From positions 1-64,000 of the forward strand of contig NZ_JAKSYI010000055.1 of assembly GCF_022829285.1 (NCBI RefSeq): a DNA stretch of 64,000 nucleotides. Direction: 5' to 3'. Under the pieces are notes generated by a model. It did no database searches. It was not told the origin of the DNA and saw only the letters and a program-made list of their open reading frames with translations. The translations under genes and the position numbers were made by a program. Positions within the stretch are counted from its first letter, which is position 1. Each line of letters starts with the position of its first letter. Positions 16,623 to 33,999 of this stretch are shown here, in pieces. Origin of the DNA: Methylobacterium sp. J-078 (GTDB lineage Bacteria; Pseudomonadota; Alphaproteobacteria; Rhizobiales; Beijerinckiaceae).

Positions 16623-17134
16623 CGAACACCCGCCCTCGAGCGAAGCTGTCGGCTTTTCGGGCCGCTGCGCGAACCTTCGGCTCGCGTGGCGGCCCGACGC
16701 ATGTCTGGGATCATGTGGCAGGCGCCGGTCGATAGGGGTGGCGATGTCACCGGGTGCGTACCTCCGCACCGGCTCCCGCCACCTGCGGGATCGAGATCAC
16801 GCTTCGGTCACCCGCCCCGCCGAGCGCGCGACATCGACTGGGTCACATGCCGGGTCGGCTCTGAAAGCCGACAGGGGATAAGTCCGATGTCGGGGATGCT
16901 CCGGGCGATCCAGTCAAGGTCTGTTCCGGACGCGCGCGACGAATGCCCTGAGTAAATCCGTCGTTGGCAAAGCATTGCCGGTGTCGTTGCAACGTCGCGA
17001 TTCGGCGAGACTGCTGGGATGCCGTGGCACAACCCCGCCAAACGTCCTAAGGGAACCTGGCATCCGGGGCGGCCGATTCCCGTGGGTGCGAGGACGTGGG
17101 GTCGGGCGCACGCCCCGGCCCGGAAAGGGTCGTC
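16623..17134. other. Intergenic region before the polysaccharide cluster
   Basis: I find no supported coding sequence. A 7-base inverted repeat, GTCGGCT-CTGAA-AGCCGAC, lies at 16854-16872. The promoter for ugd and the following gene should be in this gap, but no convincing -35/-10 pair is seen. Confidence 0.4.
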
Positions 17135-18496
17135 ATGCGGATTGCGATGGTTGGCGCGGGCTACGTGGGTCTCGTCTCCGGGACGTGTCTGGCGGGTTTC
17201 GGGCACAGCGTGGTGTGCGTCGACAAGGATCCGGAAAAGATCGCGGCGCTGCAGGCCGGGCGCATGCCGATCTACGAGCCGGGGCTCGACGCCCTGGTGG
17301 CGGAGAACGTGCGCCAGGAGCGGCTGAGCTTCGCCACCGATCTGGCCCCGGCGGTGGCGGAGGCCGAGGCGGTGTTCATCGCGGTGGGCACGCCCTCGCG
17401 CCGCGGCGACGGCTTTGCCGACCTCACTTACGTCTTTGCCGCCGCCCGCGAGATCGCCGCGGCCCTGACCGGCTTCACCGTGGTGGTCACCAAGTCTACC
17501 GTGCCGGTGGGCACCGGCGACGAGGTCGAGCGCATCATCCGCGAGACCAACCCGGGGGCGGAGGTGGCGGTGGTGTCCAACCCCGAGTTCCTGCGCGAGG
17601 GCGCGGCCATCGAGGACTTCAAGCGGCCCGACCGCATCGTCATCGGCGCCGAGGACCCACGCGGGGCGGCGGTGATGGGCGAGGTCTACCGCCCGCTCTA
17701 CCTCAACGCCGCGCCGATCCTCTACACCGACCGGCGCACGGCCGAGCTGACCAAGTACGCCGCCAACGCGTTCCTGGCCACCAAGATCACCTTCATCAAC
17801 GAGATGGCGGACCTGTGCGAGCAGGTGGGCGCCAACGTCCAGCAGGTCGCCCGCGGCATCGGTCTCGACAACCGCATCGGCGCCAAGTTCCTGCACGCGG
17901 GCCCGGGCTACGGCGGCTCGTGCTTTCCCAAGGACACCCTGGCGCTCGTCAAGACGGCCCAGGATGCGGGCACCCCGGTGCGGCTCGTGGAGACGGTGGT
18001 CTCGGTCAACGACCAGCGCAAGCGCGCCATGGCCCGCAAGGTGATCCTGGCCTGCGGGGGCTCGGTGCGGGGCAAGACGATCGCGATCCTGGGCCTGACG
18101 TTCAAGCCCAACACCGACGACATGCGCGACGCGCCCGCCCTCTCGATCATCACCGGCCTGCAGGACGGGGGCGCGCGGATCCGGGCCTACGACCCGGAGG
18201 GCATGGAGGCGGCGCAGCCCCTCCTGTCCGACGTGACCTACGCCAGCGACGCCTACGACTGCGCGCACGGCGCCGACGCCGTGGTCATCGTCACCGAGTG
18301 GAACGCCTTCCGCGCCCTCGACTTCGCCCGCCTCGCAACCCTCATGGCAGCACCCGTCATGGTCGACCTGCGCAACGTCTACACCGCCGAGGACGTACGC
18401 CGCCGGGGCTTCCGCTACACCGGCATCGGCCAGTCCCGCGCCGTGCCGGTGGACGCCGATCCCGATCGCGACCGGCCGATCATCCGACGCGATTAG
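17135..18496 (+). CDS. ugd: UDP-glucose 6-dehydrogenase
   Basis: This enzyme oxidises UDP-glucose to UDP-glucuronate with two NAD+. The 453-residue protein shows the NAD-binding GAGYVG at residues 7-12, [10 protein letters not shown], the [12 protein letters not shown] substrate loop and the catalytic Cys263 in [20 protein letters not shown] ribosome site precedes the ATG at 17135. UDP-glucuronate decarboxylase follows 13 bases downstream, so the two form a short pathway to UDP-xylose for the adjacent polysaccharide genes. Confidence 0.95.
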
Positions 18497-18509: not shown

Positions 18510-19475
18510 ATGCGTTACGGCGACACCAAGAAGATCCTCGTCACGGGTGGCGCCGGCTTCCTCGGCTCCCACCTCTGCGAGCGCCTGCTGGAGCAGGGGC
18601 ACGAGGTGCTGTGCGTCGACAACCTCTTCACCGGAAGCCGCCGGAACATCGCCCGGCTGCTGGGCGACGCGCGCTTCGAGTTCATGCGTCACGACGTGAC
18701 CTTCCCGCTCTACGTCGAGGTCGACGAGATCTACAATCTCGCCTGTCCGGCCTCGCCGGTGCATTACCAGTTCGACCCCGTGCAGACCGCCAAGACCAGC
18801 GTCATCGGCGCGATCAACATGCTGGGGCTAGCAAAACGCCTCAAGGTGAAGATCTTCCAGGCGTCCACGAGCGAGGTCTACGGCGACCCCGAAATCCATC
18901 CCCAGCCGGAGGAATACTGGGGCCGGGTGAACCCGATCGGCTACCGCTCCTGCTACGACGAGGGCAAGCGCTGCGCCGAGACGCTGTTCTTCGACTATCA
19001 CCGACAGCACCACATCCCGATCAAGGTGGCGCGGATCTTCAACACCTACGGGCCGCGCATGCATCCCAATGACGGGCGCGTCGTCTCGAACATCGTGCTG
19101 CAGGCCCTGCGCAACGCCGACATCACGCTCTACGGCGACGGATCGCAGACGCGCGCCTTCTGCTACGTCGACGATCTCATCGAGGGCTTCCTGCGTCTGA
19201 TGGCGACCGGCCCCGAGGTCACGGGGCCGATCAACCTCGGCAATCCGGGCGAGTTCTCGATCCGCCAACTCGCAGACCTCGTGATCGCGCTGACCGGCTC
19301 ACGCTCGCGCATCGTCCACCGGCCGCTTCCCCCCGACGACCCGCGCCAGCGCCGGCCCGATATCGCCAAGGCCAGGGCGCTCCTCGCGTGGGAACCGACC
19401 GTTTCCCTCAGCGAGGGCCTGGGCAAGACTATCGCGTACTTCGAACGCTTTCTCGTCGAGACCGATCACGGCTGA
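18510..19475 (+). CDS. uxs: UDP-glucuronate decarboxylase (UDP-xylose synthase), SDR family
   Basis: The 321-residue extended SDR enzyme has the Rossmann motif GGAGFLG (residues 13-19), the catalytic pair Y149-x3-K153 (YDEGK) and the Uxs-specific [30 protein letters not shown] and RRPDIAKA segments. It converts UDP-glucuronate to UDP-xylose with tightly bound NAD. It lies 13 bases after ugd and is very likely cotranscribed with it. This suggests that xylose, or a pentose derived from it, is part of the polysaccharide. Confidence 0.92.
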
Positions 19476-19499: not shown

Positions 19500-20456
19500 T
19501 CAGATCTCCGCGACGCGACGGTCGGGGCGGCGCAGCATGCGGTCGAGCAGCCGCTGCACCCGCAGGCCGCGGCGCTTGCGGCGGAACATCGCCTCGTAGT
19601 CGCGCAGGAAGCGGCCCGGGTCCGGGGCCTTGCCGACCTGGGCGGCGAGGAAGCCCTTGTCGGACGGCAGGTGCAGGATCGCGCAGGTCGCGGCGTCGGT
19701 GAAGGAAACCTGCCGGTGGTAAGTCCGGCTCGACCACCAGCGCACGATCTGCGCGCCGCGCTCCGGATTGCCGCTGCCGAGGTCGTCCACGGCGAGGCCG
19801 TCCGCCATGGCTCGGTGGATCGCGGCCGTGACCACCATCTCGTCACCCACGTGGTGCAGGGCGTCGAGGGCACCGACGTAGCGCGGGAGGCAGGCGTCGA
19901 TGGCCTGCGTGAGCGTCCGAAACCGTTCGCTCGGACCTGCGATGAACTCGCCGCCGAACCAAAGCGGTCGCTCCACCGCGATTCCTGCGATGCGCTCGAG
20001 GTCCGCCCGGACGCGGGCGATCCCGTAGGCCGGGTAGATCTGCTCGGAGATCTCGTAGACCGAGAGGGCGTCGGAGAGGGCGAGCGGGCGCTGCAGAACG
20101 CAGTCGATGTCCACGAGCCCGACATGGGCTTCGAGATCGCCGCGGGCGAAGGCCCTGAGAACGTCGAGCTTGAAGTGCGCCGCGTAGAAGGGCGTTCCGG
20201 GGGGAACCACGGCCTGGAACGGGATTTCCACCACCCCGATCGTCCCGCACCCGAGTGCGTCGAGCCGGGCCCGGACGAGGGCGGCATCGTTGGTAATCAG
20301 CGAGAACGCTTCGTCCTGGGCCGCGAAGGAGGCGTGGCAGGTCGCAGCGCAGCGCAGGTAGGTGTCGATCGCGTCGGCCCGCCGCGCGAGGTTGACGCCG
20401 CCGCTGGTTGCCGCGTCGAGGTAGAGCAGCCCGTAGAACCCGTAGCGGCTTGGCAT
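19500..20456 (-). CDS. Putative glycosyltransferase-like protein of the polysaccharide cluster
   Basis: I do not recognise a named family. The 318-residue protein begins MPSRYGFYGLLYLDAAT, contains a D-x-D triad at residues 116-118 (GLVDIDCVL) preceded by an FKLDVLRAF helix, and ends in a basic, arginine-rich tail. The layout resembles a GT-A glycosyltransferase with metal-binding DxD, and no membrane helix is seen. The stop of the polymerase gene (20458-20460) is one base before its ATG at 20456, so translation is probably coupled. An earlier in-frame start at 20480 is possible. Confidence 0.55.
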   Translation of the reverse strand: MPSRYGFYGLLYLDAATSGGVNLARRADAIDTYLRCAATCHASFAAQDEAFSLITNDAALVRARLDALGCGTIGVVEIPFQAVVPPGTPFYAAHFKLDVLRAFARGDLEAHVGLVDIDCVLQRPLALSDALSVYEISEQIYPAYGIARVRADLERIAGIAVERPLWFGGEFIAGPSERFRTLTQAIDACLPRYVGALDALHHVGDEMVVTAAIHRAMADGLAVDDLGSGNPERGAQIVRWWSSRTYHRQVSFTDAATCAILHLPSDKGFLAAQVGKAPDPGRFLRDYEAMFRRKRRGLRVQRLLDRMLRRPDRRVAEI

Positions 20457-20457
20457 C

Positions 20458-21789
20458 TCAGGCTCCGACGCGTGGACCATCCGCCGCCCGACGCGGTCCG
20501 TAGACCCGGCCGCCGACCAGGAAGGCGTAGAAGAGCAGGATCGTGGCGAGGCAGTTGTGCCGCATGAACTGGAAGTCGGTCGCGGAGGAGGCCGTGAACA
20601 GGATCAGGATGCAGCCGAGGATGTCCGCCGACGATCCGAGCGACCGGTTGGCGCTGACCCTCAGGCCCATGATCAGAATGACGATGTAGGCCGCAAGACC
20701 GAGGTAGCCGAGCACGATGAGCACATCGAGGGCGCTGTTGTGGAAGTTCGGCGTGAAGAAGAACTCGAAGTAGGACCACAGGTCCCACACCTGCGAGTAG
20801 GGATCGCGCTGGAAGAAGCCACCGTAGCCGTAGCCGATCCAGGGATGCTTGGCGATGTAGCCCGGAGCGAGGGCCCAGAAGTCGCCGCGCCCCGTGAGGT
20901 TTGAGGAGCGCCCGAACAGTTCGGTGACCGCGCCCACATCGATGTGCGGCAGCAGGACGGAGATCAGCAGCGTTGCCATCCCGACGACGAAGAACACGGC
21001 TCCGCGCAGGCGCGGTGCGGCGCGCGCCGTCGTGATCATTGCCACCGAGACCGCCAGGGCGAGGATGGCGGAGGCCGAGTTGGCCAGGACGAGGGCAATC
21101 GCGCAGAGCGCGAGGCCGATCCAGCGCCAGACCGGGGATTTCGAGAACGAGCGCGGCTGGAAGAGCAGCACCAGGAATGCCGAGGCGGCGTTGATGCCCA
21201 TGTGGATCTTGTGGCTGAAGACGCCGCTGAACTCGCCCGCCGTGAGCAGTCCCGGCCGATCCGGCTCGGTCGTGACCAGCTCGGGGATGATCGCGAGGAG
21301 GACGAGGGAGAAGGCGATGCACGGAACCACCACCCGCGCCAGGGCGCCGAGCAGGACGTCCGGATGCACCTGCGTCGCGAGGGCGTCGGCGATGACGATG
21401 TTGGCGACCAGCATCACGCAGAAGACGAAGGCCTGGGCGGGCTGGTAGGCCCAGGTCGCCGAGGCGAGGACGTAGAGGGCGAACGGAATGAGGAGCGCGA
21501 AGCGCGGTTCCAGGCCCTGCCGCCAGAGGCTGCGCAGCACCACGAGCCCCGAAATCGCGTAGAGGAGGATCCAGCCGAGCATGTTGACGATGTCCGCGCG
21601 GGAATCGTCGTTGCCCACGAGGCCGGCTTCCTTGGGGGCGCGGGGCTGGAACGAGAAGTTGTAGAACGCGGTCGACGCGAGGAACATCGCGAGGATCGCG
21701 AAGGCCATGCGGGCGACGCGCCAGCGATCCGCCGCGCGGCCCGGCACGGGGAGGGCTCCGCTCTGCAGCGAGGCGGTCACGGCGTTCAC
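20458..21789 (-). CDS. O-antigen ligase / Wzy-type polymerase family membrane protein
   Basis: The 443-residue protein has about ten hydrophobic helices and a large periplasmic loop with WIGYGYGGFFQRDP and TPNFHNSALDVLIVLG, features of the PF04932 O-antigen ligase/polymerase family. In a polysaccharide cluster the likely role is periplasmic polymerisation of lipid-linked repeat units. The start is a GTG at 21789 overlapping the stop of the Wzc-like gene as GTGA. The DxD protein (19500-20456) follows directly. All three form one operon with the acyltransferase and deacetylase upstream. Confidence 0.85.
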   Translation of the reverse strand: MNAVTASLQSGALPVPGRAADRWRVARMAFAILAMFLASTAFYNFSFQPRAPKEAGLVGNDDSRADIVNMLGWILLYAISGLVVLRSLWRQGLEPRFALLIPFALYVLASATWAYQPAQAFVFCVMLVANIVIADALATQVHPDVLLGALARVVVPCIAFSLVLLAIIPELVTTEPDRPGLLTAGEFSGVFSHKIHMGINAASAFLVLLFQPRSFSKSPVWRWIGLALCAIALVLANSASAILALAVSVAMITTARAAPRLRGAVFFVVGMATLLISVLLPHIDVGAVTELFGRSSNLTGRGDFWALAPGYIAKHPWIGYGYGGFFQRDPYSQVWDLWSYFEFFFTPNFHNSALDVLIVLGYLGLAAYIVILIMGLRVSANRSLGSSADILGCILILFTASSATDFQFMRHNCLATILLFYAFLVGGRVYGPRRAADGPRVGA

Positions 21790-23942
21790 GCGCGCGTCCC
21801 CGTCGGGCTCACCGTCCGTGCCAGGACCATGCCGGAGAGGGAGAGCCTCGCCGCTTCGCAGAGGCCGACCGCTTCCTGGACATTCGCCTTGCGGCCGCGC
21901 TCGTTCTCCACCACGAGCAGGCCGGCATCGGCCGCAGCGGCGACGAGGGCGAGGGATTCACCGGGCGCCGACCCGAAATCCAGAACCACGAGGGCGTAGT
22001 CGACGAGCGCCTGGCGCACGAGGCCGGAAAGGCCCGGGCCGCCGATGCGTCGCAGGTCGTTGGCCGCGGTCGCGTCGGCGGGCAGGAATCCGATACCATC
22101 CTCGCGGATCGGCCAGACGGCCTCCTCGATGCTGATCCGTCCCGCGCTGCAGGCCCCGAGCCCGACGGCCGCGTCGAGCCCGAGGAAGGCGGTCAGGCCG
22201 CGGGCGCCGATGGCGGCATCGATGAGGAGCACCTTCGCGCCGATGCTGGCCGCGGCCCGTGCCAGATCCAGCGCCACGAGGCCGGACATGTCGTTGGCCT
22301 CCGTGGACGACACGCCGATCGAGCGTGGTCCGCCAGGGCGCCCGACGCCGAGCCGGTCGATCAGCTCGAGCCACGGCCGGGCATCCGTGCGGTAGAGGTT
22401 GGCGCTTCCGGGATGGACCGCCCTTGTCGCCACCGGAACGGACCCGAGGATGCGCAGCCGCGAGGCCTGTTCGAGGTCGTTCCGGGAGCCGACCTTGCCC
22501 GCCATCAGGTCGAGAGCCGTGAGGCCGCCCGCGCCGACGATCAGACCCGCCATCGCGGCGAGAGCCAGGATCAGGGAGGCGGGCGGGTTCGAGGACCGCT
22601 CCGGCGCTACGGCGGGGGCGACCTTCCGGATATTGGTGGAGTTCAGCAGCGCCTGCTCCTGCAACTGCCGGCTCCTGACCAGGGCGGAATTGTAGACCGA
22701 CCGGCTGGCCTCGGCCTTGCGCTCCAGTTCCCGCAACTGGACGAAGGCGTTGCTCGCCGAATTCGCCGTCCGGCTCTGGGCCTCGATCTCGCGGGTGTAG
22801 AGCCGCTCCGTCTCGCGGGCTCGGGCGAGGTCGCTGCGGGCCGCCTGGGCGAGGCGATCGATCTCCTGGTTGATGCTCGTCTGCGCTTCCTGCACCTCGC
22901 GGCGCAGATCCACGAGGTCGGGGTGCCGAGGCCCGAGCTTGTTCTCGAGGCTGGCATAGCGCCGCTTGACCTCGGCCATCTGCACCCGGAGAGCCGTGAT
23001 CGTGGAGGAATCCAGGCTTTCCAGGCTGCCCTGGCCGCGATTGATCTTCGACAAGCCGTCGACGCGCGCCTGAGCTTCCGCCACCTGCGTGCGGGCGCGG
23101 CCGAGCTGGGAGTTGAGTTCGGCGAGTTGCTGGTCGCTCAGGAGGCGCCCGCCCGCATTGACGAGCTTGTTCGAGACCTTGAATGCCTCGACCGCGTCCT
23201 CGGCCGCGCGGACGCGGGCTTGCATCTGCTTGATGTTCCCATCGATCGACGCGCTGGAATTGCGCGCCAGATCGGCCTGCGCCTCGGCGCTTTCCGTGAT
23301 GTAGCTGTCGACCACCGTGTTCGCCACGAGGGCGCTCTTGCGGGCATCCGCGCTCGTCATCGTGATCTCGACGACGAAGCTGCGCTCGATCCGGCGGATG
23401 GCGAGACGGTCGCTGAGGACCGCGACGGCGCGGGCCTTTAGGTCCGGCGCCGCCTTCTCACGAGTGCCGAGGAAAGCGGTGAAGACGCCCTTCACCGCGC
23501 CGATGGCGTCGCCGACGAGCGAGGATTTGGTACCGTTGAATTCCGGGTCCTCGGTGAGGCGGAGCTTGTCCACCACGTGTTCCAGCAGGTCGGTCGCCTT
23601 CAGCACCCGCATCTCGCTCTCGACGAGGTTCGTCACGGCGTCGGCGGATTGGGCCGACGGCTGCACCTCGGTGTCGAGGACCTTCAGGCCGCGCGGATCG
23701 ATGATGATCTGCGCGGTCGCGACGAAGCGCGGCGTGCTCGTGGCGACGACGGCGAGGCCGATGCCGAGGGCGAGGAGGACGGTCAGGATCAGCCAGCCGA
23801 TCCGGCGGCGCAGGATGGCGCCGAGGTGCCGGAGGGTGATGGTCTTGGCGGCACCGGCCACCGGCACGGGCTCGACGGCGTGCGCCGGATCCGGGCGTGC
23901 CATCAGGACGCGGGAGAGGTCGGCGACTTCAACGCTCTTCAT
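21786..23942 (-). CDS. Wzc/GumC-type chain-length protein with a degenerate tyrosine-kinase domain
   Basis: The 718-residue product has a Wzz domain between two membrane helices (about 50-70 and 475-497) with long coiled coils (about 240-440), as in Wzc, ExoP and GumC. The C-terminal BY-kinase-like domain from about 541 is altered. The Walker A position reads GVSSTEANDMSG (543-554), with no GKT/S and no lysine. The Walker A' position reads VLLIDAAIG instead of the usual DAD-x-R. No tyrosine cluster ends the protein. It probably sets chain length or aids export but should not autophosphorylate. The ATG at 23942 gives MKSVEVADLSR; an upstream frame to 24026 is not conserved. Confidence 0.85.
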   Translation of the reverse strand: MKSVEVADLSRVLMARPDPAHAVEPVPVAGAAKTITLRHLGAILRRRIGWLILTVLLALGIGLAVVATSTPRFVATAQIIIDPRGLKVLDTEVQPSAQSADAVTNLVESEMRVLKATDLLEHVVDKLRLTEDPEFNGTKSSLVGDAIGAVKGVFTAFLGTREKAAPDLKARAVAVLSDRLAIRRIERSFVVEITMTSADARKSALVANTVVDSYITESAEAQADLARNSSASIDGNIKQMQARVRAAEDAVEAFKVSNKLVNAGGRLLSDQQLAELNSQLGRARTQVAEAQARVDGLSKINRGQGSLESLDSSTITALRVQMAEVKRRYASLENKLGPRHPDLVDLRREVQEAQTSINQEIDRLAQAARSDLARARETERLYTREIEAQSRTANSASNAFVQLRELERKAEASRSVYNSALVRSRQLQEQALLNSTNIRKVAPAVAPERSSNPPASLILALAAMAGLIVGAGGLTALDLMAGKVGSRNDLEQASRLRILGSVPVATRAVHPGSANLYRTDARPWLELIDRLGVGRPGGPRSIGVSSTEANDMSGLVALDLARAAASIGAKVLLIDAAIGARGLTAFLGLDAAVGLGACSAGRISIEEAVWPIREDGIGFLPADATAANDLRRIGGPGLSGLVRQALVDYALVVLDFGSAPGESLALVAAAADAGLLVVENERGRKANVQEAVGLCEAARLSLSGMVLARTVSPTGTRA

Positions 23943-24153: not shown

Positions 24154-25278
24154 TCATCGTCCGCTGCCCCGGACCGCCGCAGCCCGACGCTCGGCGATCC
24201 TGGCTCGGAGCCGATGGATCGCTGGCCGGAGGCGCCGCTTGAGGTCGAGCCGGGCGAAGTGAAGCACGGTCGCCAGTTGGCCCGGCCTGATGAGTCCGAG
24301 CCGAGAACGGCGCGTCACCACCGTCTGGAGCGGGATGCAGGTGGCGCCGACCTGAGCTTTGTAGGGCATGTCTCCCCACATCAGGTTGAAATCCACGATT
24401 CCCCGCGCCCGGCAGGCCTCGATCGAGTTGATGAGCGTGATCTTGCCCAGGCTGCTCGTCGGATAGCCGGGATCGTACCCATGGGTCAGGAAATAGGCCT
24501 GATCCCCCGAAAGGCAGATGAGGTCGGCGGCCAGGATCGTATCGCCCATCGTCAGGATCGAGGCATGTCCGACCTTGGACGCCACCGCCGTGAGGCGCAC
24601 GGTCTCGCTGTCGTCGATGCCGTAGCGCCGGCCCTGCCCCTCGATCCGGATGCGGCCGAACGCGGTGATCGCGTCGAGAACGCTCCGCTGCGGGCCGGCC
24701 TCGAAGCGGATCGCCACGCCCGGGTTGTCGCGCGCGAGGTTGCGCAGACAGCGCTTGGTGTTGGCGACGACCTTGGGCGGTACCTGCGCCGCGCTGTCCG
24801 ACAGGGGCAGGCGCCAGTTGTTCTGGTAATGGAACACGAACCGCCGCGGTCCCCGGGGGAGGGGGGTGGCGAGTTCGACATCCTCGAAGACGACGAAGCC
24901 CGCGCCGGCCTTCGCCATGAGCCGGTCCGCCAGTGTCGAGACCATCGTCTCGTCGATGCGGGCAAGGCGTCCCTGATGGATCAGGCCACCCTTCGCACGG
25001 GTGAAGACGAGGCGCGGCGCGTCCCGCCCGGGCTGCGCCTCGACGATGAGGAGCGCGCCGGCCTCGTAGGCGCGCAGCCAGGCCGGTTGGGTGAAGAGCG
25101 TGCAGGGCGCCGCATCGGCGTATCGCGACGCCTCGTCGGTCCGGAGGCGCAAGGCCCCATCGGCGGCGACATAGTCCGCTGCGGTCAGGACCCGGCGGCC
25201 CGACGGGCCGAGCGGGCGCTCGACCGGCGACGGCGTCGCGTCCGGGGCGGATCGTGCCATGGCGAGGGACCCACTCAT
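24154..25278 (-). CDS. GNAT/FemAB-like acyltransferase (BioF2 acetyltransferase domain)
   Basis: The 374-residue protein matches polysaccharide-cluster acetyltransferases of the CelD/BioF2 (PF13480) group. It has an N-terminal half with TLFTQPAWLRAYEAG and a C-terminal half with SYP-like GYDPGYPTSSLGKITL and FNLMWGDMPYKAQVG. Expected role: acylation of a sugar or of a lipid-linked intermediate. The start is unsure. The ATG at 25278 has GGAAAG 6 bases upstream and is preferred; an ATG at 25350, ten bases after the upstream deacetylase stop, is the alternative. Confidence 0.75.
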   Translation of the reverse strand: MSGSLAMARSAPDATPSPVERPLGPSGRRVLTAADYVAADGALRLRTDEASRYADAAPCTLFTQPAWLRAYEAGALLIVEAQPGRDAPRLVFTRAKGGLIHQGRLARIDETMVSTLADRLMAKAGAGFVVFEDVELATPLPRGPRRFVFHYQNNWRLPLSDSAAQVPPKVVANTKRCLRNLARDNPGVAIRFEAGPQRSVLDAITAFGRIRIEGQGRRYGIDDSETVRLTAVASKVGHASILTMGDTILAADLICLSGDQAYFLTHGYDPGYPTSSLGKITLINSIEACRARGIVDFNLMWGDMPYKAQVGATCIPLQTVVTRRSRLGLIRPGQLATVLHFARLDLKRRLRPAIHRLRARIAERRAAAVRGSGR

Positions 25279-25360
25279 CTCGATCTTTCCGGTCTTCCCG
25301 TCCCGAGCTTCGGCCCGGTCGCGAACGCGGTCCTGGACATTTGCGGCCATCGTGTCGGCA

Positions 25361-26227
25361 TTAGGCGGCGAGGGCCGGCGGCACGAACCGCGGCTCGGCA
25401 CGGGTGGCGTAGTAGACGACCGTGCTGATTGGCCAGCCCGGCTCGAAATGGTGGCGCGGCAGGTAGCGGGGCATACCCTCGCCGGCCTGGAGAGACCCGC
25501 GCACGCTCGAGAAGATGGCGCGGTATCCGCTGGCGGTAGCCCGTGCGAGGGCCCGCTCGCTCATCGCGGTGGTGCGTCCGAACGGCCAGGCGAAGCTGGT
25601 GCATTCCCCCGGCAGCCGTGCCTCGACCGCCGCGCGGCAGCCCGCGATCTCGGCGTCGAGTTCGTCTTCGGGCAGGCGCGAGACCTCGCGGTGCGTCAGG
25701 GTGTGCGCGCCGATCTCGACGTTCTCGCGTGCGAGGCGCGCCAGGGTTTCCCAGTCGGCGAGCGGCAGTGGCTTGGCGTAGCGGGCGTTGCGCCGGAACG
25801 CCTCGCAGGCACCGGCCGGCTTCTCGATGAATGCGGGGCAGACCATCAGGGCGTAGGGGATGCCGGCTCCGCGCAGGACGGGATGCGCCTGGCTCGCGAT
25901 GTTCTCGAAACCGTCGTCGACGGAGAGGTGGAACAGGCGTCCCCGCCGGCGCGACGATCCGTCGAGGAGCGAAGCCAGCTCCGCCGTGGTGATGAAGTCG
26001 CCCTCGCGCTTCAGGGCCGCGAAGAGGCGGGTCGCGTGCTCGCGCTCCTGCGGGAACAGGTAGTGGAAGGTCAGGCAACGGACCGTGTCGGCGGTCCGCT
26101 CGTAGGCCAGGGGCCGGACACGATCCATGATCCCGCGCAGGATCAGGCGCTTGACCCGGTCGGACAGGCCGGCCGGCGGCGTCATTGCCGAGGCCGACGT
26201 CGCGTAAGCAGGGGACGGGTCAGACAT
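25361..26227 (-). CDS. Polysaccharide deacetylase (NodB homology) family protein
   Basis: The NodB signature is present: HLSVDDGFEN provides the catalytic and metal-binding Asp pair, and HTLTHREVSRL the two metal His. Later come AWPFGRT and a C-terminal LPRHHFEPG. Family members remove N- or O-acetyl groups from polysaccharides. From the ATG at 26227 the protein has 288 residues. In-frame ATGs at 26308 and 26395 would lengthen it, but no start has a strong ribosome site. Whether it acts in the cytosol or is exported is unclear, as no typical signal peptide is visible. Confidence 0.82.
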   Translation of the reverse strand: MSDPSPAYATSASAMTPPAGLSDRVKRLILRGIMDRVRPLAYERTADTVRCLTFHYLFPQEREHATRLFAALKREGDFITTAELASLLDGSSRRRGRLFHLSVDDGFENIASQAHPVLRGAGIPYALMVCPAFIEKPAGACEAFRRNARYAKPLPLADWETLARLARENVEIGAHTLTHREVSRLPEDELDAEIAGCRAAVEARLPGECTSFAWPFGRTTAMSERALARATASGYRAIFSSVRGSLQAGEGMPRYLPRHHFEPGWPISTVVYYATRAEPRFVPPALAA

Positions 26228-26690
26228 GGAAGAATGGGCGTGGATCGCGGGAGGCCGGTCGCGCTGGGCCTCTGCCTCTGTCCACACCGTGCCGTGGAGG
26301 ATCTGCATCGCGATCGAGCGCTCCGTCGATAAGCAACCAGGAACCCGGAACGGGACGGGCCACGATGCGCCTCGGACCGGTCCGACGTCGTCCACAGCCG
26401 ATACCTCCGTGGGTGACGGACCGGAACAAGGCCGACCATAGACCGAGAGGGTAAAGGAACGCTCGCGTGGCCTTCGAAAAATGGCATATGGTTACCAATA
26501 TATTCTTGTTCACCGACAGAAACCTATCTGTCTCGAAATCCGTTATATTGACGTTTGCGTGGTCCATTCTTGGCTCAATCCCGAACATGACCGTGCCATC
26601 TTGTGGCGACAGGGTCCGGCATTCCGCCTGCATTGCGGTCATCGAACATGCGGCTCGTCATCCATTCGGACCGTCCGCGCGCCTTCGAGA
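26228..26690. other. Divergent intergenic region with an AT-rich core
   Basis: This gap separates the leftward deacetylase operon from the rightward beta-helix operon. The segment 26475-26580 is markedly AT-rich for this genome and probably holds promoters for both directions. An inverted repeat lies at 26515-26532. The beta-helix frame is open upstream to 26481, but the extra residues (MAYGYQYILVHRQ) look non-coding. Confidence 0.5.
26515..26532. promoter_or_regulatory. Inverted repeat in the divergent polysaccharide promoter region
   Basis: GACAGA-AACCTA-TCTGTC is a perfect 6-base inverted repeat with a 6-base spacer, lying in the AT-rich core. Its location between two divergent polysaccharide operons suggests an operator. 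The regulator is unknown. Confidence 0.45.
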
Positions 26691-28844
26691 ATGAAGCTCA
26701 TGACGCTGCCTCAGGCTAGCACTTCGACCCCTGGCCGCGATGCCCTTCGCCGGCATCGGGTTCGGCCGGCCTGTCTGGTTGCGATCGGCCTGCTCGCAGG
26801 CGCGGCGCTCCAGTTCGCCCGTGACGCGAAGGGCGCGACCGACTCGCGCATGCCCGGATTCCAGATTCGGGTCGATCCCGGCGTGAGCCGCTCCGCTACG
26901 ACGGCGGGGCGGGAGATCGTGGTCGCGACGCTCGAGGAGGCCCTCGACGTCCTTCGGCAACGGCGACGGGCGGGGCGTGACGGAGAGGGGGGCGCCCTGA
27001 TCGCGTTCGCCGGCGGGGTCCATCGTCTCGCGGAGCCGGTCCGGATCGAGAAGGGCTTGGGCGGGCTCCCCGGTCAGCCCCTGGTCCTGCGCGGGGCCGC
27101 GGACGGAAGCACCCGGATCGTCGGCAGCGTTCCCCTGGCGCCGGTCGATGAACCCCTGCCGGGCGGTGTCGATCCGCAGCAGCGCAGCCGCGTGCGCAGC
27201 TATCGCCTGCCGCGCGCCGCCGCCGACGAGCCCAGCATCAACGTGCACCGCATCCACCCGGTGCCGTCGCCCCCCCTCGGTCTGGAGATCTTCGACGCGC
27301 AGGGCGCGCTGATGCCCGCCCGCTGGCCGAATGCCGGCTGGGCACACCTCGCTCTGCCAGACGAGCCGCCTAAGGGCGCAGAGGCCACGGACCCCACGAT
27401 CCTCCTCCCGGAAGGGCGCGCGGCCCGCTGGCGCGACGAGGGCGACCTCTGGATCGCCGGGTATCTCGGCCAGGACTGGTCCTTCGAGACGCTGCCGGCG
27501 CTGGCCCTGCCCCCCGCCGCGAACCGCCTCGCGCTGCTCGGCACGCCGCATTACCCCCTGCGGCCGAAGGACCGCTTCTACGTCGAGAACGCCCTGGCGG
27601 AGCTCGACGCACCGGGCGAATGGTGGCGCGACACGAAGCGTGGCCTCGTCCTCCTGATTCCGCGCCAGGACTCGGCCGGGCCGATCGAGGTCTCCGTCGC
27701 TTCGGGCCTGATCGCGATCGACGGGGCCAGTCACGTCCGCCTCGAGGGGCTCACCCTGGAGCGCACGCGCGGCGACGCCGTCGTGGTGACGGGGGGCGAC
27801 GATGTCGTCCTGGAGGATTGCACCCTGCGCTGGACCGGCGGTCGCGGTCTCGTGATCACGGACGCGGTCCGCTCGGGCCTTCGGCGCTCCGTGGTGGCCG
27901 AGACCGGCGAGGGCGGGGTCACCCTCACTGGCGGCGACCGGGCGCGCCTCGTTCCGGGCGGCAACTTCGTCGAGGACAGCGTCCTCGTCCGGTTCAGCCG
28001 CCTCGGACGGACCTACAAGGCGGCGGTCTCGGTGGATGGCGTCGGCATGCGGGTTACCGGTAACCTCGTCGCGCACGCGCCGCACCTCGCCATCCTGTTC
28101 CAGGGCAACGATCACGAAATCGCACGCAATGAGATTTACGATGTCGTTAGGGAATCGTCGGATGCATCTGCGATCTATACGGGGCGCGATATCACCGCTC
28201 AGGGCACGCGTCTGAGTGGAAATTTTCTTCACGACATCCGCCCCGAACCTGGGTTCGAGGTGAAAGGAATCTATCTCGATGACATGGCGAGCGGTTTGAG
28301 CATCACCGGCAACCTGTTTCTCCGTGTCGACCAGCCGGTTTTCATCGGGGGCGGCCGGGACAACACCGTGATGGGCAACACCTTCGTGGGGTCCCCGCCC
28401 GCGTTCTTCCTTGATGGGCGGGGCGAAGTCTGGGCGGGTCCGCCGATCACGAGCTCGGCCAACACGGTGCGCGCGGCCTTCGATTCGGTACTGGCGACCC
28501 GGCCGCCATGGTCGACGCGCTATCCTCTGTTGGCTGGCCTTCTGTCGGACCGGCCCCTGGCCGCCAAGCGCAACGTCTTTCGCGACAATCTTCTCGTGTC
28601 GAGTGGCGCGCCGCAGATCGAGGCCGGTGCCGATCCGCGCCTGCAGACGGTCGGGGCCAACCGGACCCTCGAGGCGCCGGAGGCCGCGCGGGCGCCGACG
28701 CTCGCCGCCCTCGAACCCATCCTCGCGACGGATCGAACCATCCCGCACGCGCTCGATGCGTTCGACCGCGCCGCGATCCTCTCCCGAATTGCCACCCTCA
28801 AACGACGGGCCGGCCATCTTCTCACACGCGACGGATCTCCATGA
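26691..28844 (+). CDS. Right-handed parallel beta-helix protein, probably exported
   Basis: The 717-residue protein has a basic N-terminus and a hydrophobic segment (about residues 30-45, ACLVAIGLLAGAALQF) that looks like a signal peptide. Many PbH1-type repeats follow between about 340 and 600 (such as IDGASHVRLEGLTLERT, VTGNLVAHAPHLAILFQGN, ITGNLFLRV). Such folds are found in polysaccharide lyases, epimerases and hydrolases that trim or modify the polymer in the periplasm or outside. A specific activity cannot be named. The glycosyltransferase that follows overlaps its stop as ATGA. Confidence 0.8.
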   Translation: MKLMTLPQASTSTPGRDALRRHRVRPACLVAIGLLAGAALQFARDAKGATDSRMPGFQIRVDPGVSRSATTAGREIVVATLEEALDVLRQRRRAGRDGEGGALIAFAGGVHRLAEPVRIEKGLGGLPGQPLVLRGAADGSTRIVGSVPLAPVDEPLPGGVDPQQRSRVRSYRLPRAAADEPSINVHRIHPVPSPPLGLEIFDAQGALMPARWPNAGWAHLALPDEPPKGAEATDPTILLPEGRAARWRDEGDLWIAGYLGQDWSFETLPALALPPAANRLALLGTPHYPLRPKDRFYVENALAELDAPGEWWRDTKRGLVLLIPRQDSAGPIEVSVASGLIAIDGASHVRLEGLTLERTRGDAVVVTGGDDVVLEDCTLRWTGGRGLVITDAVRSGLRRSVVAETGEGGVTLTGGDRARLVPGGNFVEDSVLVRFSRLGRTYKAAVSVDGVGMRVTGNLVAHAPHLAILFQGNDHEIARNEIYDVVRESSDASAIYTGRDITAQGTRLSGNFLHDIRPEPGFEVKGIYLDDMASGLSITGNLFLRVDQPVFIGGGRDNTVMGNTFVGSPPAFFLDGRGEVWAGPPITSSANTVRAAFDSVLATRPPWSTRYPLLAGLLSDRPLAAKRNVFRDNLLVSSGAPQIEAGADPRLQTVGANRTLEAPEAARAPTLAALEPILATDRTIPHALDAFDRAAILSRIATLKRRAGHLLTRDGSP

Positions 28845-29986
28845 AAGTCGCTCTCCTCACCAACATCGTCACCCCCTATACCCACCGGCTCTTCGAGCGG
28901 ATGGGTCAGGGCCTGGGCGGCGACCTCTCGGTTTTCGCCTGCAGCGAGACGGAGCCGGACCGGCACTGGATCATCGAGCCGGCCCGGCACTACCGCCGCG
29001 CGGCCCTGGCGGGCCTGCGCCTGCACCGCTCCTACGTCAGCCACATCTACCTCAATCCGGGCATCGTGCCGGCCCTGCTGGGGACGCGCTACGACGTGGT
29101 CGTCCTCAGCGATTTCTCGCCGACGATGATGATGGCCTGCGCAGCCGCCCGCGCGCGCCGCATCCCCGTGATCATCTCGACCGACGGGCAGCCCGAGACC
29201 GATCCGGGGCGGCACTCTCGGATCCACCGCCTTGCGCGGCGCGCCATCGTGCCGCTCTGCGCGGCCGGGGTCGGGGCGAGCCGGGGCAGTCTCGCGCTCC
29301 TCCAGGCCTACGGCCTCGCGCCCGAGGCGTCCTTCCTCTCGCCGATCGCCCCCGGCTGGGATTTCGTCGGCTCGCCCCCAGACTTCGACGCGCGCCCGTT
29401 CGATCTCCTGTTCTGCGGCCACCTCGACGACGATCGCAAGGGCGCCCTGTTCTTCGCCGACGTGGTCGACGCCCTCGTGGCGCGGGGACGCCGCCTCACG
29501 GTCCGTGTCGCCGGCGACGGTCCCTTGCGCGACGCCCTGGCTGAACGCCTTCGGGCAGTTGGCGTGGAGGCCCGGTTCGACGGATTCCTGAGCCAGGAGG
29601 CTCTGGCCGAGGCCTATGCGTCCGCGAAGGTCTTCCTGTTTCCGTCGCGCGGGGATCCCTGGGGGCTCGTGGCGAACGAAGCCATCCAGTGCGGCACGCC
29701 CGTGATCGCCTCGGTGCACGCGCAATCCGCCCTGGAACTGGTGGGCCCGAGCGGCACAGGGCAGGTCCTCCCGCTCGCCGTGGCAGCCTGGGCCGACGCG
29801 GCCGAGCGGTACCTCGACGACCGCGCGGCGTGGCAAGGCGCCCACGCTTCCGCGGTCGCGGCGACCCGGACCTTCTCGATCGACGCCATGACCGCCGGCT
29901 TCCTGGCGTCCTTCGACTACGTCACCGACCGGTCCGGCGGGACGCCATCCGGCGCGCTGGGCGCGAGTCTCGGACGGGCGGAATGA
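28841..29986 (+). CDS. Glycosyltransferase family 4 protein
   Basis: The 381-residue protein has a GT-B fold. It begins MKVALLTNIVTPYTHRLFE, has a second-domain start FDLLFCGHLDDDRKG, and a donor-binding motif FPSRGDPWGLVANEA in which Asp replaces the first Glu of the usual E-x7-E. It is expected to add a sugar to a lipid-linked repeat unit on the cytosolic face of the inner membrane. Its ATG overlaps the beta-helix stop, and the flippase ATG overlaps its own stop (ATGA at both joints), so the three genes are translationally coupled. Confidence 0.9.
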   Translation: MKVALLTNIVTPYTHRLFERMGQGLGGDLSVFACSETEPDRHWIIEPARHYRRAALAGLRLHRSYVSHIYLNPGIVPALLGTRYDVVVLSDFSPTMMMACAAARARRIPVIISTDGQPETDPGRHSRIHRLARRAIVPLCAAGVGASRGSLALLQAYGLAPEASFLSPIAPGWDFVGSPPDFDARPFDLLFCGHLDDDRKGALFFADVVDALVARGRRLTVRVAGDGPLRDALAERLRAVGVEARFDGFLSQEALAEAYASAKVFLFPSRGDPWGLVANEAIQCGTPVIASVHAQSALELVGPSGTGQVLPLAVAAWADAAERYLDDRAAWQGAHASAVAATRTFSIDAMTAGFLASFDYVTDRSGGTPSGALGASLGRAE

Positions 29987-31308
29987 TTCATCTGTCGATG
30001 GTCTCCCCGGCCCGGTCCGGCTTTCCGGGGACGATCGTGCGCACCCTGGCCATGCGGCTGTGGTCGGACCCCTGGATCTGGTCGGCGGGCGTGCAGGCCC
30101 TGTCGAGCGGCATGAGCCTCGTCGTTTCCGTGGTGGCGGCCCGCCTGCTCGGCGTCGCGGATTTCGGCATCTACGCCCTGGTTCATGCCGGCGTCGCGCT
30201 CCTCGGCGTGCTGCAGTACCAGCTCGTCGCCGGACCGATGATGATCGTGGCCGGGCGCCGGACCCGGTCCGCCGACTATTTCGGCACCGTGGCGCGTGCG
30301 GCGATCGTGGTCTCGCTCCTGGTCGGCGCCGCGGTCGCAATCTATACCGCCGCCCTCATTGAGCGGCCGACGGGAAGCGGCGCCTGGGCGCTGCCGCTCG
30401 CGAGCCTCGTCTACGCCGCCGGCTACATCGTGCATGACAACGCCAAGCGGCTGGCCTTCGCCCGCGGATGGTCCCGGGCGGGTTTCGCCTACGAACTGGC
30501 GCGCCACCTCGTCTTCATCGCCCTGCTCGCCCTGGTCTGGCTGATTTACGGGGTGGACACGCCGATCCTGCTCGCCTGCGGGGGATTGTCAGCGATGCTG
30601 GCCTCGTTCCCGGCCTTTCTCATCGCGCTCAGGAGCCGCACGCGGGGCAGCCTCCGGCGCACCGTCGGCCGTCACCATTGGGTGCTCGGACGCTGGCTCG
30701 TCCTCGTCATCTTCGTCTCGGCGGCCCACGAGCAGATCGTCACGATCCTGGCGGGATCGCTGATCGACCAGGACGCCTCGGCGGCCCTGCGCGCCGTGCA
30801 GGTGCTGTTCGGCCCCCTGCTCGTTCTGATGATGAGCCTCGAGAACATCGTCCCCCGCCAGGCCACCAACCGGTTGCAGGCGGGCGGACGGGCCGCCCTG
30901 GCCCGCTATCTCCTGCGCGTGCTCGTCCTGATGGAAATCCCGATCGTCGCCGTCTGCCTGATCGTCGGCCTCTACGGGGCATCGATCCTCGGCTGGCTCA
31001 TGGGCCAGGGCTTCGCGAGCTTCGGACGCGTCGCCGCCATCATGGCGCTGGGTCCGCCCGTGACGATGTGCCGGGAGATCGGGGTCCTCTACCTGCGCAC
31101 GACGGGCAACACCCAAGGCGTCTTCTTCGCCTTCCTGACCAGCGCCGTGATCACCGTGACGGCGATCTACCCGCTGATCCATACCTTCGGCCTCGAAGGC
31201 GCGGCCGCCGCGGCGATCCTCGGTCACTGCGTCTCGACGGCCGTCATCCTGTTCCAGGTCTGGCGGCTGCGGCCCGGTCTCGATCGTCCGACCGCCGCGT
31301 CGGCCTGA
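29983..31308 (+). CDS. Wzx-type polysaccharide flippase
   Basis: The 441-residue membrane protein has about twelve to fourteen hydrophobic helices and starts with an oligosaccharide-flippase-like region, SSGMSLVVSVVAARLLGVADFGIYALV. Family role: moving undecaprenyl-linked repeat units across the inner membrane before polymerisation. The ATG at 29983 overlaps the glycosyltransferase stop by four bases; an ATG at 29998 is an alternative. It ends the rightward operon and converges on the WecG-like gene. Confidence 0.87.
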   Translation: MIHLSMVSPARSGFPGTIVRTLAMRLWSDPWIWSAGVQALSSGMSLVVSVVAARLLGVADFGIYALVHAGVALLGVLQYQLVAGPMMIVAGRRTRSADYFGTVARAAIVVSLLVGAAVAIYTAALIERPTGSGAWALPLASLVYAAGYIVHDNAKRLAFARGWSRAGFAYELARHLVFIALLALVWLIYGVDTPILLACGGLSAMLASFPAFLIALRSRTRGSLRRTVGRHHWVLGRWLVLVIFVSAAHEQIVTILAGSLIDQDASAALRAVQVLFGPLLVLMMSLENIVPRQATNRLQAGGRAALARYLLRVLVLMEIPIVAVCLIVGLYGASILGWLMGQGFASFGRVAAIMALGPPVTMCREIGVLYLRTTGNTQGVFFAFLTSAVITVTAIYPLIHTFGLEGAAAAAILGHCVSTAVILFQVWRLRPGLDRPTAASA

Positions 31309-31376: not shown

Positions 31377-32207
31377 CTACGGCTTGCCGGAACTCCCGCG
31401 ATCGCGCGCCACGATGGCGAGGAAGCGGGGGACCACGGTGGCGTAGCGTCGGCCCAGGCGGCGCGGCTCCCGGATCAGCCGATACAGCCATTCGAGGCCG
31501 AGCCGCGTCATGGCGGCCGGCGCCCGCGGAATCGTGTTCAGGTTCACGTCGAAGGCCGCGCCGACGCCCATGGCGATCGTGCTGGGCAGGAACGGCGCGT
31601 GGCGGTGCATGAACAGTTCCTGCTTGGGCGTGCTCAGACCGATCCACAGGACCTGCGTGCCCGCCCCGCGGATGCGCTGGTGCAGGGCCTCGGACTCCGG
31701 CTCGGTGAGGGGGCGGTAGGGCAGGGTCTCGTGCCCGGCGATCGCCAGGCCCGGCGCGCGCCGCGCCATCTCGTGGGCCAGCGCCTCGGCGACCCCCGGT
31801 CCACCTCCCAGGAAGAAGTGCCTCCAGCCCTCCGCGAGGCCGGCCCGGCACACGGTCTCCACGGATTCGATGCCCGGAACCTGGGCGATCCTCGCGTGTC
31901 CGCGCAGGCGCCCGATCCAGGCGAGGGGGCGCCCGTCCGCGCAGACCAGAAGCGCGGCGTGGTGGGCCGCCATCACGTCGGGATCGTCCTGAGCCCGTAC
32001 GATCCCGTGCGCATCGCGGAAGACCACGAAGGTGCCGGGTGTACCGGGTCCGCGTCGGAGCCGCCGCCGCATCGCATCCACCAGGCCGGTCATGTCAGTG
32101 ACCGAGACCGGAACGCCGCCGAGGGCGTAGTGCGCGACCTCGGGATCGTGCCCCCAGGCATGGCGCCCTGTCGTCTGCGGAAAGGGTTCGGATGCGGACA
32201 GGATCAT
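31377..32207 (-). CDS. WecG/TagA/CpsF family glycosyltransferase
   Basis: The 276-residue product matches the WecG/TagA family: ALGGVPVSVTDM at the start, LLVCADGRPLAWIGRL, FFLGGGPGVAEALA, and the diagnostic WIGLSTPKQELFMHRH and IAMGVGAAFDVN. Members transfer N-acetylmannosamine-type or glucose-type residues to lipid carriers. It may provide an early sugar of the repeat unit. The ATG at 32207 overlaps the stop of the upstream GT4 gene (ATGA), so the two are coupled. An intrinsic terminator follows. Confidence 0.87.
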   Translation of the reverse strand: MILSASEPFPQTTGRHAWGHDPEVAHYALGGVPVSVTDMTGLVDAMRRRLRRGPGTPGTFVVFRDAHGIVRAQDDPDVMAAHHAALLVCADGRPLAWIGRLRGHARIAQVPGIESVETVCRAGLAEGWRHFFLGGGPGVAEALAHEMARRAPGLAIAGHETLPYRPLTEPESEALHQRIRGAGTQVLWIGLSTPKQELFMHRHAPFLPSTIAMGVGAAFDVNLNTIPRAPAAMTRLGLEWLYRLIREPRRLGRRYATVVPRFLAIVARDRGSSGKP

Positions 32208-33460
32208 GGCGCCTCTCGCTGGTGGCTGCTGGCACGGGCGGCGATCGCCTCGCGGTAGATCGGAAGGGCACGGGCGGTGACGGAGGCTTCGGTCCACTCG
32301 CGCTCGTAGACACCGCGACCCGCGCGGCCCATGGCGCGGGCCTCCTCCGGTGCATCGATGATCCGGTCGAAGGCGCGCGCGAGGGCGTCCGGGTCGCCGG
32401 GCGCGGCATGCAGGCCGGTCACGCCTTCGCCCACGAGATCGGGCAGCGCGCCGATCCGCGACACGATGACGGGCGTGCCGACGCTGAACGCTTCCGCGAT
32501 CACCATGGGCAGGCCCTCGTAGCAGAGCGAGGGCACGACCACGGCCTGGGCCGCGCGCATCGCCGCGCGAACGCCCTCTCGGTCTCGGGGTCCGAGATAG
32601 GTCAGGTTCGGCACCCCGCGTACGAGGTCCACCAGGGGGCCGTCGCCGATGATGGTGAGCGGCGCACGCGTCCGGCCTGCGGCCTCCACCAGGGGGGCCA
32701 CGCCCTTCTCCGGTCCGAGCCGCCCGACATACAGGATGCCGGCGCGCGGGCCGTCCGGCCCCGCGCCCGGATCGGCGAGGCCGTTGGGCTTGATCCGGAT
32801 CCGATCCCCGGGAAGCCCGGCCGCGACGAAGCGGGAGCGTGCGAAATCGGTCAGCGCGATGAAGCGATCGACGTCCCGGGTCCAGGTGCCGGCGCGGCGA
32901 TGCACGTCGATCATCCGCGCCACCGCCAGGGAACCGAGGCGCGAGCCCCGGTAGCAGGCGTGGCGGACGGCCTGGTAGGGCGAGCCGCCCACGCAATCCT
33001 CGCAGGGGCGCGCATCGCGCATCAGGATGCCGTTCGCACAGGTGACGCGAAAATTGTGGAGCGTCTGCACCGTCGCGGTGCCCGTGGCCCGCACGGCGGC
33101 GTGCATGCCGGGCGAGATCCTGGGGAAGACGTTGTGGGCGTGCACCACGTCGGGTCGAAAGGCCCGCACGGCATCGAGCACGGCGGCGATTCCGCGCGGG
33201 GCGTAGGCCGCCTCCCAGGCGGCCCTCAGCTTGTCGGCGGCCGTGCGGATGCCGTCATTGTCCAGGAACAGGGTCTCGACGCTCTGGCCCGCCCGGCGCA
33301 GGCTCGCCACTTCCTGCTCCACCACTGCGTCCTCGCCGCCGCGGACCTGATAGCGGTTGTGCACCACGAGGATGCGCAGGGGCGCCACGGTGCCGTCCCG
33401 TACCGAGACGGAGTCCGCGCCGGATCGGAAAGCGTCGCGCGACCCGGCGTCTTCCCTCAT
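32204..33460 (-). CDS. Glycosyltransferase family 4 protein
   Basis: A GT-B enzyme. It starts with LRILVVHNRYQVRGGEDAV, has the acceptor-domain segment DVVHAHNVFPRISPG, the second domain GILYVGRLGPEKGV and a canonical E-x7-E donor motif (YEGLPMVIAEAFSVGTPVI). The start at 33460 (418 residues) is chosen for the GGAAG 8 bases upstream; in-frame ATGs at 33490 and 33508 are alternatives. A cysteine pair in ARPCEDCVGGSPYQAVRHACYRG suggests a bound metal, as in some GT4 enzymes. It leads the leftward two-gene operon with the WecG-like gene. Confidence 0.87.
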   Translation of the reverse strand: MREDAGSRDAFRSGADSVSVRDGTVAPLRILVVHNRYQVRGGEDAVVEQEVASLRRAGQSVETLFLDNDGIRTAADKLRAAWEAAYAPRGIAAVLDAVRAFRPDVVHAHNVFPRISPGMHAAVRATGTATVQTLHNFRVTCANGILMRDARPCEDCVGGSPYQAVRHACYRGSRLGSLAVARMIDVHRRAGTWTRDVDRFIALTDFARSRFVAAGLPGDRIRIKPNGLADPGAGPDGPRAGILYVGRLGPEKGVAPLVEAAGRTRAPLTIIGDGPLVDLVRGVPNLTYLGPRDREGVRAAMRAAQAVVVPSLCYEGLPMVIAEAFSVGTPVIVSRIGALPDLVGEGVTGLHAAPGDPDALARAFDRIIDAPEEARAMGRAGRGVYEREWTEASVTARALPIYREAIAARASSHQREAP

Positions 33461-33999
33461 CAGAGAATCTTCCGAGAGGCGGAGCGGCATCGAAGCTGTC
33501 TCTGTCATCGCAACATGTCGAGGGTCGTCCTGAACGGACCATGCCTTGCCCAGATCAACGCGTACCGAGACCGCTCGGACAGAGAGCCGAGGCGTCGGCC
33601 CTGCATGTCCGGGCACCGCTCCGGGTCACCGTTCGGGCGATCTAGCCACGCAGGTCTTAAAATTCGCTCGGCGCCATCCGCGATCCATTGACATTCGGAT
33701 TTACGCTTCTCTCACCAATACGGTAGGTGGTCGTCGGAAACTTGGGAACTGCCGGTGCAGTCGGCATGCGGTGCGCGTCTGTTCGCCCCGACCGCGCGTG
33801 CCACAGGCAGGTGCCATGTGTGATCCGCATGGATAGGAACACACACCCGACGACGCCGTTCTATGCCTGAGCGCTCGGGCAGACGACGTACGCCGCCGCC
33901 AGCCCGAGACCAGGTTCATAGACATCGAAGTCGCGCACCGCATCCGCCGAGGGGTTGGAAGGCCGGCTGCCGCTTCGTCGAAACCGGAGGACGACACGA
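33461..33999. other. Divergent intergenic region between the GT4 operon and dps
   Basis: No supported gene. The 5' part (to 33508) may be the N-terminus of the GT4 protein if an earlier start is used. The rest should hold promoters for that operon and for dps. A TTGACA-like hexamer is at 33691-33696, but no good -10 at the right distance is visible. Confidence 0.4.

Follow-up and report, generated by a model that had tools for sequence, protein, structure and literature searches.

According to PMC11986026, the unphosphorylated form of the bacterial tyrosine kinase (BY-kinase) Wzc is an octamer which is dismantled by phosphorylation, and capsule production depends on cycling between the two states. 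The contact area within the octamer has been described as essential for trans-autophosphorylation as well as for polysaccharide synthesis (PMC3795738). BY pseudokinases are the subject of PMC12004946, where EcpK, which acts with EpsV, and HfsB, which acts with HfsA, are presented, a scaffold role independent of phosphorylation is proposed, and fused variants in Sinorhizobium, Brucella, Mesorhizobium and Vibrio are listed after Cuthbertson et al. 2009. These fusions of a BY pseudokinase to a polysaccharide co-polymerase (PCP) of the PCP-2 type are SMc01795 of Sinorhizobium meliloti, Mlr8439 of Mesorhizobium japonicum, BCETI_6000729 and VV1_2305. A further example of such an already described fusion is the 718-residue protein P0001, encoded at 21786-23942 in a window of 64,000 nucleotides (the whole stretch of DNA that was analysed) from Methylobacterium sp. 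J-078. The rhizobial fused pseudokinases belong to the same bacterial order as this host. Among the papers listed in a literature search, judged by titles and the openings of abstracts, there was none on the P0001 protein or on pseudokinase PCPs of Methylobacterium.

By their description in PMC12004946, the four fused proteins combine a PCP and a BY-kinase-like domain lacking catalytic residues in one chain, as P0001 does. EcpK of Myxococcus xanthus and HfsB of Caulobacter crescentus are described there as pseudokinases without the motifs and the tyrosine tail which serve a PCP-2; in these respects they are like P0001, but they are separate proteins whose function has been tested experimentally, whereas the domain of P0001 is fused and known from sequence and a model. 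Wzc of Escherichia coli and CapAB of Staphylococcus aureus share the kinase fold with P0001, and Wzc also the domain order, but they have the Walker A lysine, the pair of Walker A' aspartates, the interface motif and the tyrosine tail, each of which is lost or incomplete in P0001. GumC-type proteins are PCPs without a kinase domain. Such a PCP part alone is also found in five relatives of P0001 (L041-L045), from which P0001 differs by having retained a folded and conserved kinase-like domain. What is added here to the described cases is the purifying selection on the dead domain, a genome without a BY-kinase over the cut-off, and sister PCPs without a kinase domain in similar gene clusters.

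Architecture, fold and motif losses of P0001

The interval assigned to the gene by the original prediction proved to be exact; it is read on the minus strand, and the plus strand of the same interval is interrupted by a stop. The Pfam families Wzz (PF02706, residues 34-127, 46.1 bits, cut-off 25.5) and GNVR (PF13807, residues 405-472, 30.4 bits, cut-off 27.7) were found over their cut-offs, and two hydrophobic helices, apparent from hydropathy and from a full-length model, bound the periplasmic part. As Wzz, GNVR and two transmembrane helices are present, P0001 is assigned to the PCP-2a (Wzc/ExoP-type) co-polymerases, and with the BY-kinase fold of its cytoplasmic part it has all the features of this class, which upholds the predicted Wzc-type family. 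Two further NCBIfam models, exopolysaccharide transport TIGR01005 and EpsF, matched below their cut-offs. A Pfam scan down to an E value of 1 gave no kinase or ATPase family in P0001, and the tyrosine autokinase models of NCBIfam matched residues 541-710 weakly (TIGR03029 with 35.4 bits, cut-off 313.8; TIGR01007 with 32.5 bits, cut-off 108).

The fold of the C-terminal domain was examined by structure prediction of the last 221 residues (498-718). AlphaFold with 26 homologues yielded a model with a predicted local distance difference test score (pLDDT) of 78.6 and a predicted template modelling score (pTM) of 0.83. In a Foldseek search against the PDB the best match of this model was CapA2B2 (4jmp, E 3.8e-11), and the top matches included the kinase domain of E. 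coli Wzc with a TM-score of 0.81 on the query. VIA-align gave Z scores of 23.8 for CapA1B1 (4jlv) and 23.7 for Wzc (7nhr); the top 19 rows were all BY-kinases with Z from 20.5 to 23.8, followed by Soj/ParA with 17.1. The retention of the kinase fold, which had been proposed from the sequence, is in good accordance with these results. The fold alignment was built with 27 of the 59 available references. The alignment behind the AlphaFold model includes kinases with the GK signature and may bias the model towards the BY-kinase fold; a profile made from the four orthologous sequences alone (P0001 and the three orthologues described below) matched 15 self-chosen BY-kinases bearing GK[ST] with an E value of 8.5e-18 and a gapless Walker A column, two of these 15 rows (L154 and L128) being excluded from the tree discussed below. 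The full-length model of P0001 has a pTM of 0.40 and low inter-domain confidence.

The Walker A region of P0001 reads GVSSTEANDMSG at residues 543-554 and aligns without gaps to active-looking BY-kinases such as GVVSAVPNEGKTTF; the slightly longer stretch 543-556, GVSSTEANDMSGLV, likewise aligns without gaps to BY-kinases of the same genus with this and similar loops. As the loop alignment is gapless, the position of the Walker A lysine is taken by serine 553 and that of the preceding glycine by methionine 552, so that MSG stands in P0001 and in all three orthologues where an active BY-kinase has GK[ST]. In the Walker A' motif, VLLIDAAIG at residues 571-579, DAA replaces DxD, and the Walker B aspartate D655 is retained. 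The tyrosines of the protein are found at positions 214, 329, 382, 417, 517 and 649, none of them within the last 40 residues. Beyond residue 510 the only lysines are K570 and K685, neither of which aligns with the P-loop. A search for the octamer-interface motif EX2RX2R, in the form E..R..[RK], found no occurrence in residues 498-547. The original prediction of a lost Walker A lysine and of a lost C-terminal tyrosine cluster is therefore correct, and a substitute lysine in the nucleotide site, which would speak against a dead kinase, was not found by alignment; the claim for Walker A' holds for the second aspartate (A577), whereas the first one, D575, is still present. A canonical kinase with a shifted P-loop was ruled out, as the alignment to BY-kinases runs through the loop without gaps and there is no lysine inside. 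ATPases of the MinD/ParA type have a deviant Walker A motif, KGGxGK[ST]. This motif is missing at the P-loop position of P0001, and ParA/MinD structures resemble its fold less closely (Z about 17 compared to 24); P0001 does not fit this type. With a BY-kinase fold from which the catalytic motifs and the tyrosine tail are missing, the domain has the characteristics of a BY pseudokinase, and sequence and structural model together strongly support its reading as a predicted pseudokinase.

Three full-length orthologues with 77-95% identity were among the matches listed for 111 genomes of the genus, including the own genome, the next best match there having 43% over partial length. The closest named relative is the 95% orthologue of Methylobacterium goesingense DSM 21331 (L067). 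An assembly or frameshift artefact was ruled out, as the reading frame is open in P0001 and in all three orthologues. The domain is under purifying selection: the ratio of nonsynonymous to synonymous substitution rates (dN/dS) over the six pairs of the four sequences is 0.13-0.23 for residues 536-718 and 0.06-0.25 for the PCP part. Invariant in the four sequences are 130 of 183 residues in the domain and 351 of 457 in the PCP part. Residues 552-577 are invariant throughout (26/26), the former P-loop at 543-551 in two of nine positions (Fisher p 0.003, for a stretch picked after viewing the alignment). By these sequence comparisons, the catalytic site has decayed and the fold is preserved.

Kinase-free sister proteins

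A tree was calculated by a careful method from the PCP part alone. Seventy-eight rows were prepared, comprising 29 loci of the best genus hits to P0001 among the matches listed, 30 loci from a TIGR01007 search, 16 of 71 loci from a search for P0001 relatives, two further PCPs of the own genome, and P0001 itself. L147 and L162 were dropped as too short and seven long-branch rows (L166, L155, L128, L167, L142, L159 and L154) were excluded, leaving 69 rows. The rows were sampled from best hits and the counts apply to this sample; the tree does not give the root or the direction of change; as GK-bearing kinases are widespread, loss is the natural direction.

The four orthologous sequences without the Walker A lysine share one side of a branch (support 99/97) with the five PCP-only proteins L041-L045, none of which has a kinase domain. 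The enclosing group of 41 rows (100/99) contains 12 PCP-only proteins, eight kinase-like proteins without the lysine, two with an unrelated tail, and 19 with GK[SA] in an unusual loop. Among its 27 kinase-like tails none has a tyrosine in the last 40 residues and none has the octamer-interface motif. In the canonical clade of 22 rows at least two tyrosines were found in 15, none in six, and the interface motif in 15; loss thus occurs outside the 41-row group, too.

Several members of the sample deserve mention in their own right. The 19 PCPs of the genus with GK[SA] (L046-L062, L064 and L066) have it in a loop like ADDRxGKS, together with LLVDADP, and from their sequence might possibly bind nucleotide without autophosphorylation. 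L063 and L065 have a cytoplasmic tail of about 155 residues in which the alignment alone reveals no likeness to a kinase domain. Three Mesorhizobium proteins (L072, L077 and L091) and one from a metagenome-assembled genome of Hyphomicrobiales (L080) are PCP-2a proteins which, like P0001, have no Walker A lysine, but they form a separate branch and have a different degenerate loop, like SPPEDAAQRGR; they are perhaps of the same kind as Mlr8439. L011, labelled as lysine-free by alignment alone, lies outside the 41-row clade.

The loci of the sister PCPs were compared with the window. The clusters of L171 and L173 resemble it in wzy (37-39%), the PCP (42%), the beta-helix protein (45-48%) and a glycosyltransferase (48%), with the deacetylase and the flippase at 28-30% to their counterparts in the window. 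In both, the PCP terminates shortly past the second transmembrane helix, and the family search gave Wzz and GNVR and no kinase or ATPase family. L172, L174 and L175 also carry a kinase-free sister PCP, and have only the PCP and wzy in common with the cluster of the window. A stand-alone BY-kinase-like gene beside the sister PCPs was sought with the own profile in L171-L175, about 20 kb each, and none was found (best E 0.68, in L174).

Gene cluster and genome

The features of the window are collected in Table 1. The start codon of wzy overlaps the stop codon of the PCP gene (GTGA), and the gene order is preserved in the three orthologous loci L168-L170 to the extent that these loci reach. The scans with Pfam and NCBIfam gave no match for the putative flippase, and the epimerase/dehydratase family protein is probably a UDP-glucuronate decarboxylase. 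Adjoining wzy, a protein of 326 amino acids without Pfam or NCBIfam match is encoded at 19500-20480 on the minus strand; homologues of it are present in L169 (94%) and L170 (76%), and none was matched in L168. Genome-wide searches found three genes for outer-membrane polysaccharide export (OPX) and, in a search restricted to the Bac_transf type, two initiating transferases, all of them outside the window.

Table 1. Features of the P0001 gene and its surroundings in the window
Feature	Coordinates	Strand	Evidence
PCP-2a protein with fused predicted BY pseudokinase, 718 aa (P0001)	21786..23942	-	Wzz and GNVR matches
First transmembrane helix, aa 48-68	23739..23801	-	hydropathy windows starting at 47-53; helix in full-length model
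Second transmembrane helix, aa 455-480	22503..22580	-	hydropathy windows starting at 453-461; helix in full-length model
Cytoplasmic BY-kinase-like (predicted pseudokinase) domain, aa 498-718	21789..22451	-	AlphaFold, Foldseek, VIA-align
Walker A remnant, aa 543-554, with Ser553 in place of Lys	22281..22316	-	aligned without gaps to GK[ST]-bearing BY-kinases
Walker A' remnant, aa 571-579, with D575 retained and A577 in place of the second Asp	22206..22232	-	alignment
Wzy-type polymerase (O-antigen ligase family)	20458..21789	-	PF04932 E 3.3e-15
GNAT/FemAB-like acetyltransferase	24154..25401	-	PF13480 E 9.1e-13
Polysaccharide deacetylase	25361..26395	-	PF01522 E 2e-14
Right-handed beta-helix protein	26481..28844	+	PF13229 E 3.5e-13; homologue in L168-L171 and L173 clusters
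Glycosyltransferase (GT4)	28508..29986	+	PF13692 E 1.8e-23
Putative Wzx flippase	29689..31308	+	cluster position and look of the sequence; homologue in L168-L171 and L173
WecG/TagA/CpsF glycosyltransferase	31377..32258	-	PF03808 E 7.2e-50
Glycosyltransferase (GT4)	32204..33616	-	PF13692 E 6e-27
UDP-glucose/GDP-mannose dehydrogenase family (precursor sugar)	17096..18496	+	PF03721 E 1.1e-64
NAD-dependent epimerase/dehydratase family	18510..19475	+	PF16363 E 8.4e-50; PF01370 E 8.4e-49

The genome, in 145 contigs and 100% complete according to the table, contains three PCPs over the Wzz cut-off: P0001, a PCP-only protein on contig C56, and a frame of 810 amino acids on contig C107. The latter (L033, 8934-11363, minus strand) lies near a gene for an initiating glycosyltransferase and one of the OPX genes. 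Its C-terminal part of about 200 residues gave no match to a kinase, ATPase or other family at an E value of 1, and the own profile reached just 0.07, so it was dropped as a candidate for a second lysine-free kinase fusion.

A separate BY-kinase and a phosphatase had also been suggested as things to look for in the genome. A search with TIGR01007 gave 15 matched stretches, none of them over the cut-off. Twelve have their best match in ParA, MinD, CpaE/Ssd, Mrp/ApbC, BchX or formate-tetrahydrofolate ligase, many of these best matches being themselves under the curated cut-offs; the other three are P0001, a stretch which looks BchL-like by its sequence, and a further stretch of a frame already counted. 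With no match over the TIGR01007 cut-off, a separate BY-kinase was rejected. Across the genus, TIGR01007 matches at E 1e-20 or better occur in 59 of 111 genomes and matches over the cut-off in 12 of 111, the own genome having none. On the phosphatase side the search was positive, with a gene of the low-molecular-weight tyrosine phosphatase family at C58:10294 (55.1 bits) and a weaker match on C128, with no evidence linking either to P0001. The BchL-like gene (L024, on C128) and the BchX gene (L022, on C12) indicate that the organism has genes for bacteriochlorophyll synthesis.

A predicted scaffold role of the pseudokinase

P0001 is probably a co-polymerase with a fused BY pseudokinase which serves as a structural scaffold independently of phosphorylation and has no autophosphorylation of its own. 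As co-polymerase in an exopolysaccharide cluster of the Wzx/Wzy type, it would control or aid, with its periplasmic part, the Wzy polymerase from the adjoining, overlapping gene, and may in this way govern chain length. The cytoplasmic part keeps the kinase fold but would neither bind ATP nor autophosphorylate, and would hold or position the PCP oligomer as a structural element without a phosphorylation cycle; this scaffold role is suggested by analogy with the described pseudokinases. Of the two alternatives in the original prediction, polymer length control without the usual cycle is favoured, and control by another kinase is weakened, as TIGR01007 gave no match over the cut-off and the weaker matches resemble other ATPases.

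Several points weigh against this reading. Among the three close sequences the domain has 2-3.5 times the dN/dS of the PCP part (0.13-0.22 versus about 0.06), which fits slow decay too, and the sister PCPs function without the domain, so that it may be dispensable. Certain nucleotide-binding proteins manage without the Walker lysine. Finally, as the interface motif is missing from all 27 kinase-like tails and the octamer contact area is described as essential in PMC3795738, a scaffold in the form of the canonical kinase ring cannot be taken for granted.

The faster change in the close sequences and the kinase-free sister proteins, two of whose five loci lie in a similar cluster, would together with the variable P-loop also fit a domain which has kept little function since catalysis was lost and is a vestige in the course of disappearing, the lineage standing between PCP-kinase fusions and PCP-only proteins. 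This is unlikely, however, as the dN/dS of the domain is still low in every pair and, where the 77% orthologue is involved (three pairs), slightly lower than in the PCP part, while the share of invariant residues comes near that of the PCP part and the frame is open in all four sequences. Considerably less probable is a rebuilt site binding a nucleotide or another ligand, by which the oligomer would be switched: D575 and D655 are retained and the stretch behind the P-loop is fully invariant, but the loop contains no lysine, the two lysines of the region lie off it, and the former P-loop itself is not conserved among the orthologues. Least probable of all is phosphorylation of P0001 in trans by another kinase, for although the genome has a gene of the low-molecular-weight phosphatase family, as in some BY-kinase systems, this family includes arsenate reductases, no BY-kinase over the cut-off was found, the weaker matches resemble other ATPases, and the tail of P0001 offers no tyrosine.

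Beyond the scaffold proposed for P0001, it may tentatively be suggested that the rhizobial PCP clade abandoned control by phosphorylation a single time and that the kinase was afterwards lost stepwise: at first the tyrosine tail and the interface motif, missing from all 27 kinase-like tails, later the P-loop in two branches, and elsewhere the whole domain. The PCP-2 proteins of the own genome would then function without a BY-kinase, the domain of P0001 being kept as a nucleotide-free structural part.

In the current model, as given in PMC11986026, assembly and disassembly of Wzc-type proteins around the polymerase depend on cycles of tyrosine phosphorylation. P0001 is a naturally occurring and conserved protein of the Wzc type which lacks the parts required for such a cycle. 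It occurs in a genome without a BY-kinase over the cut-off and has relatives in whose similar clusters the sister PCPs are kinase-free, and it thereby allows one to ask for a role of the domain that does not involve phosphorylation.

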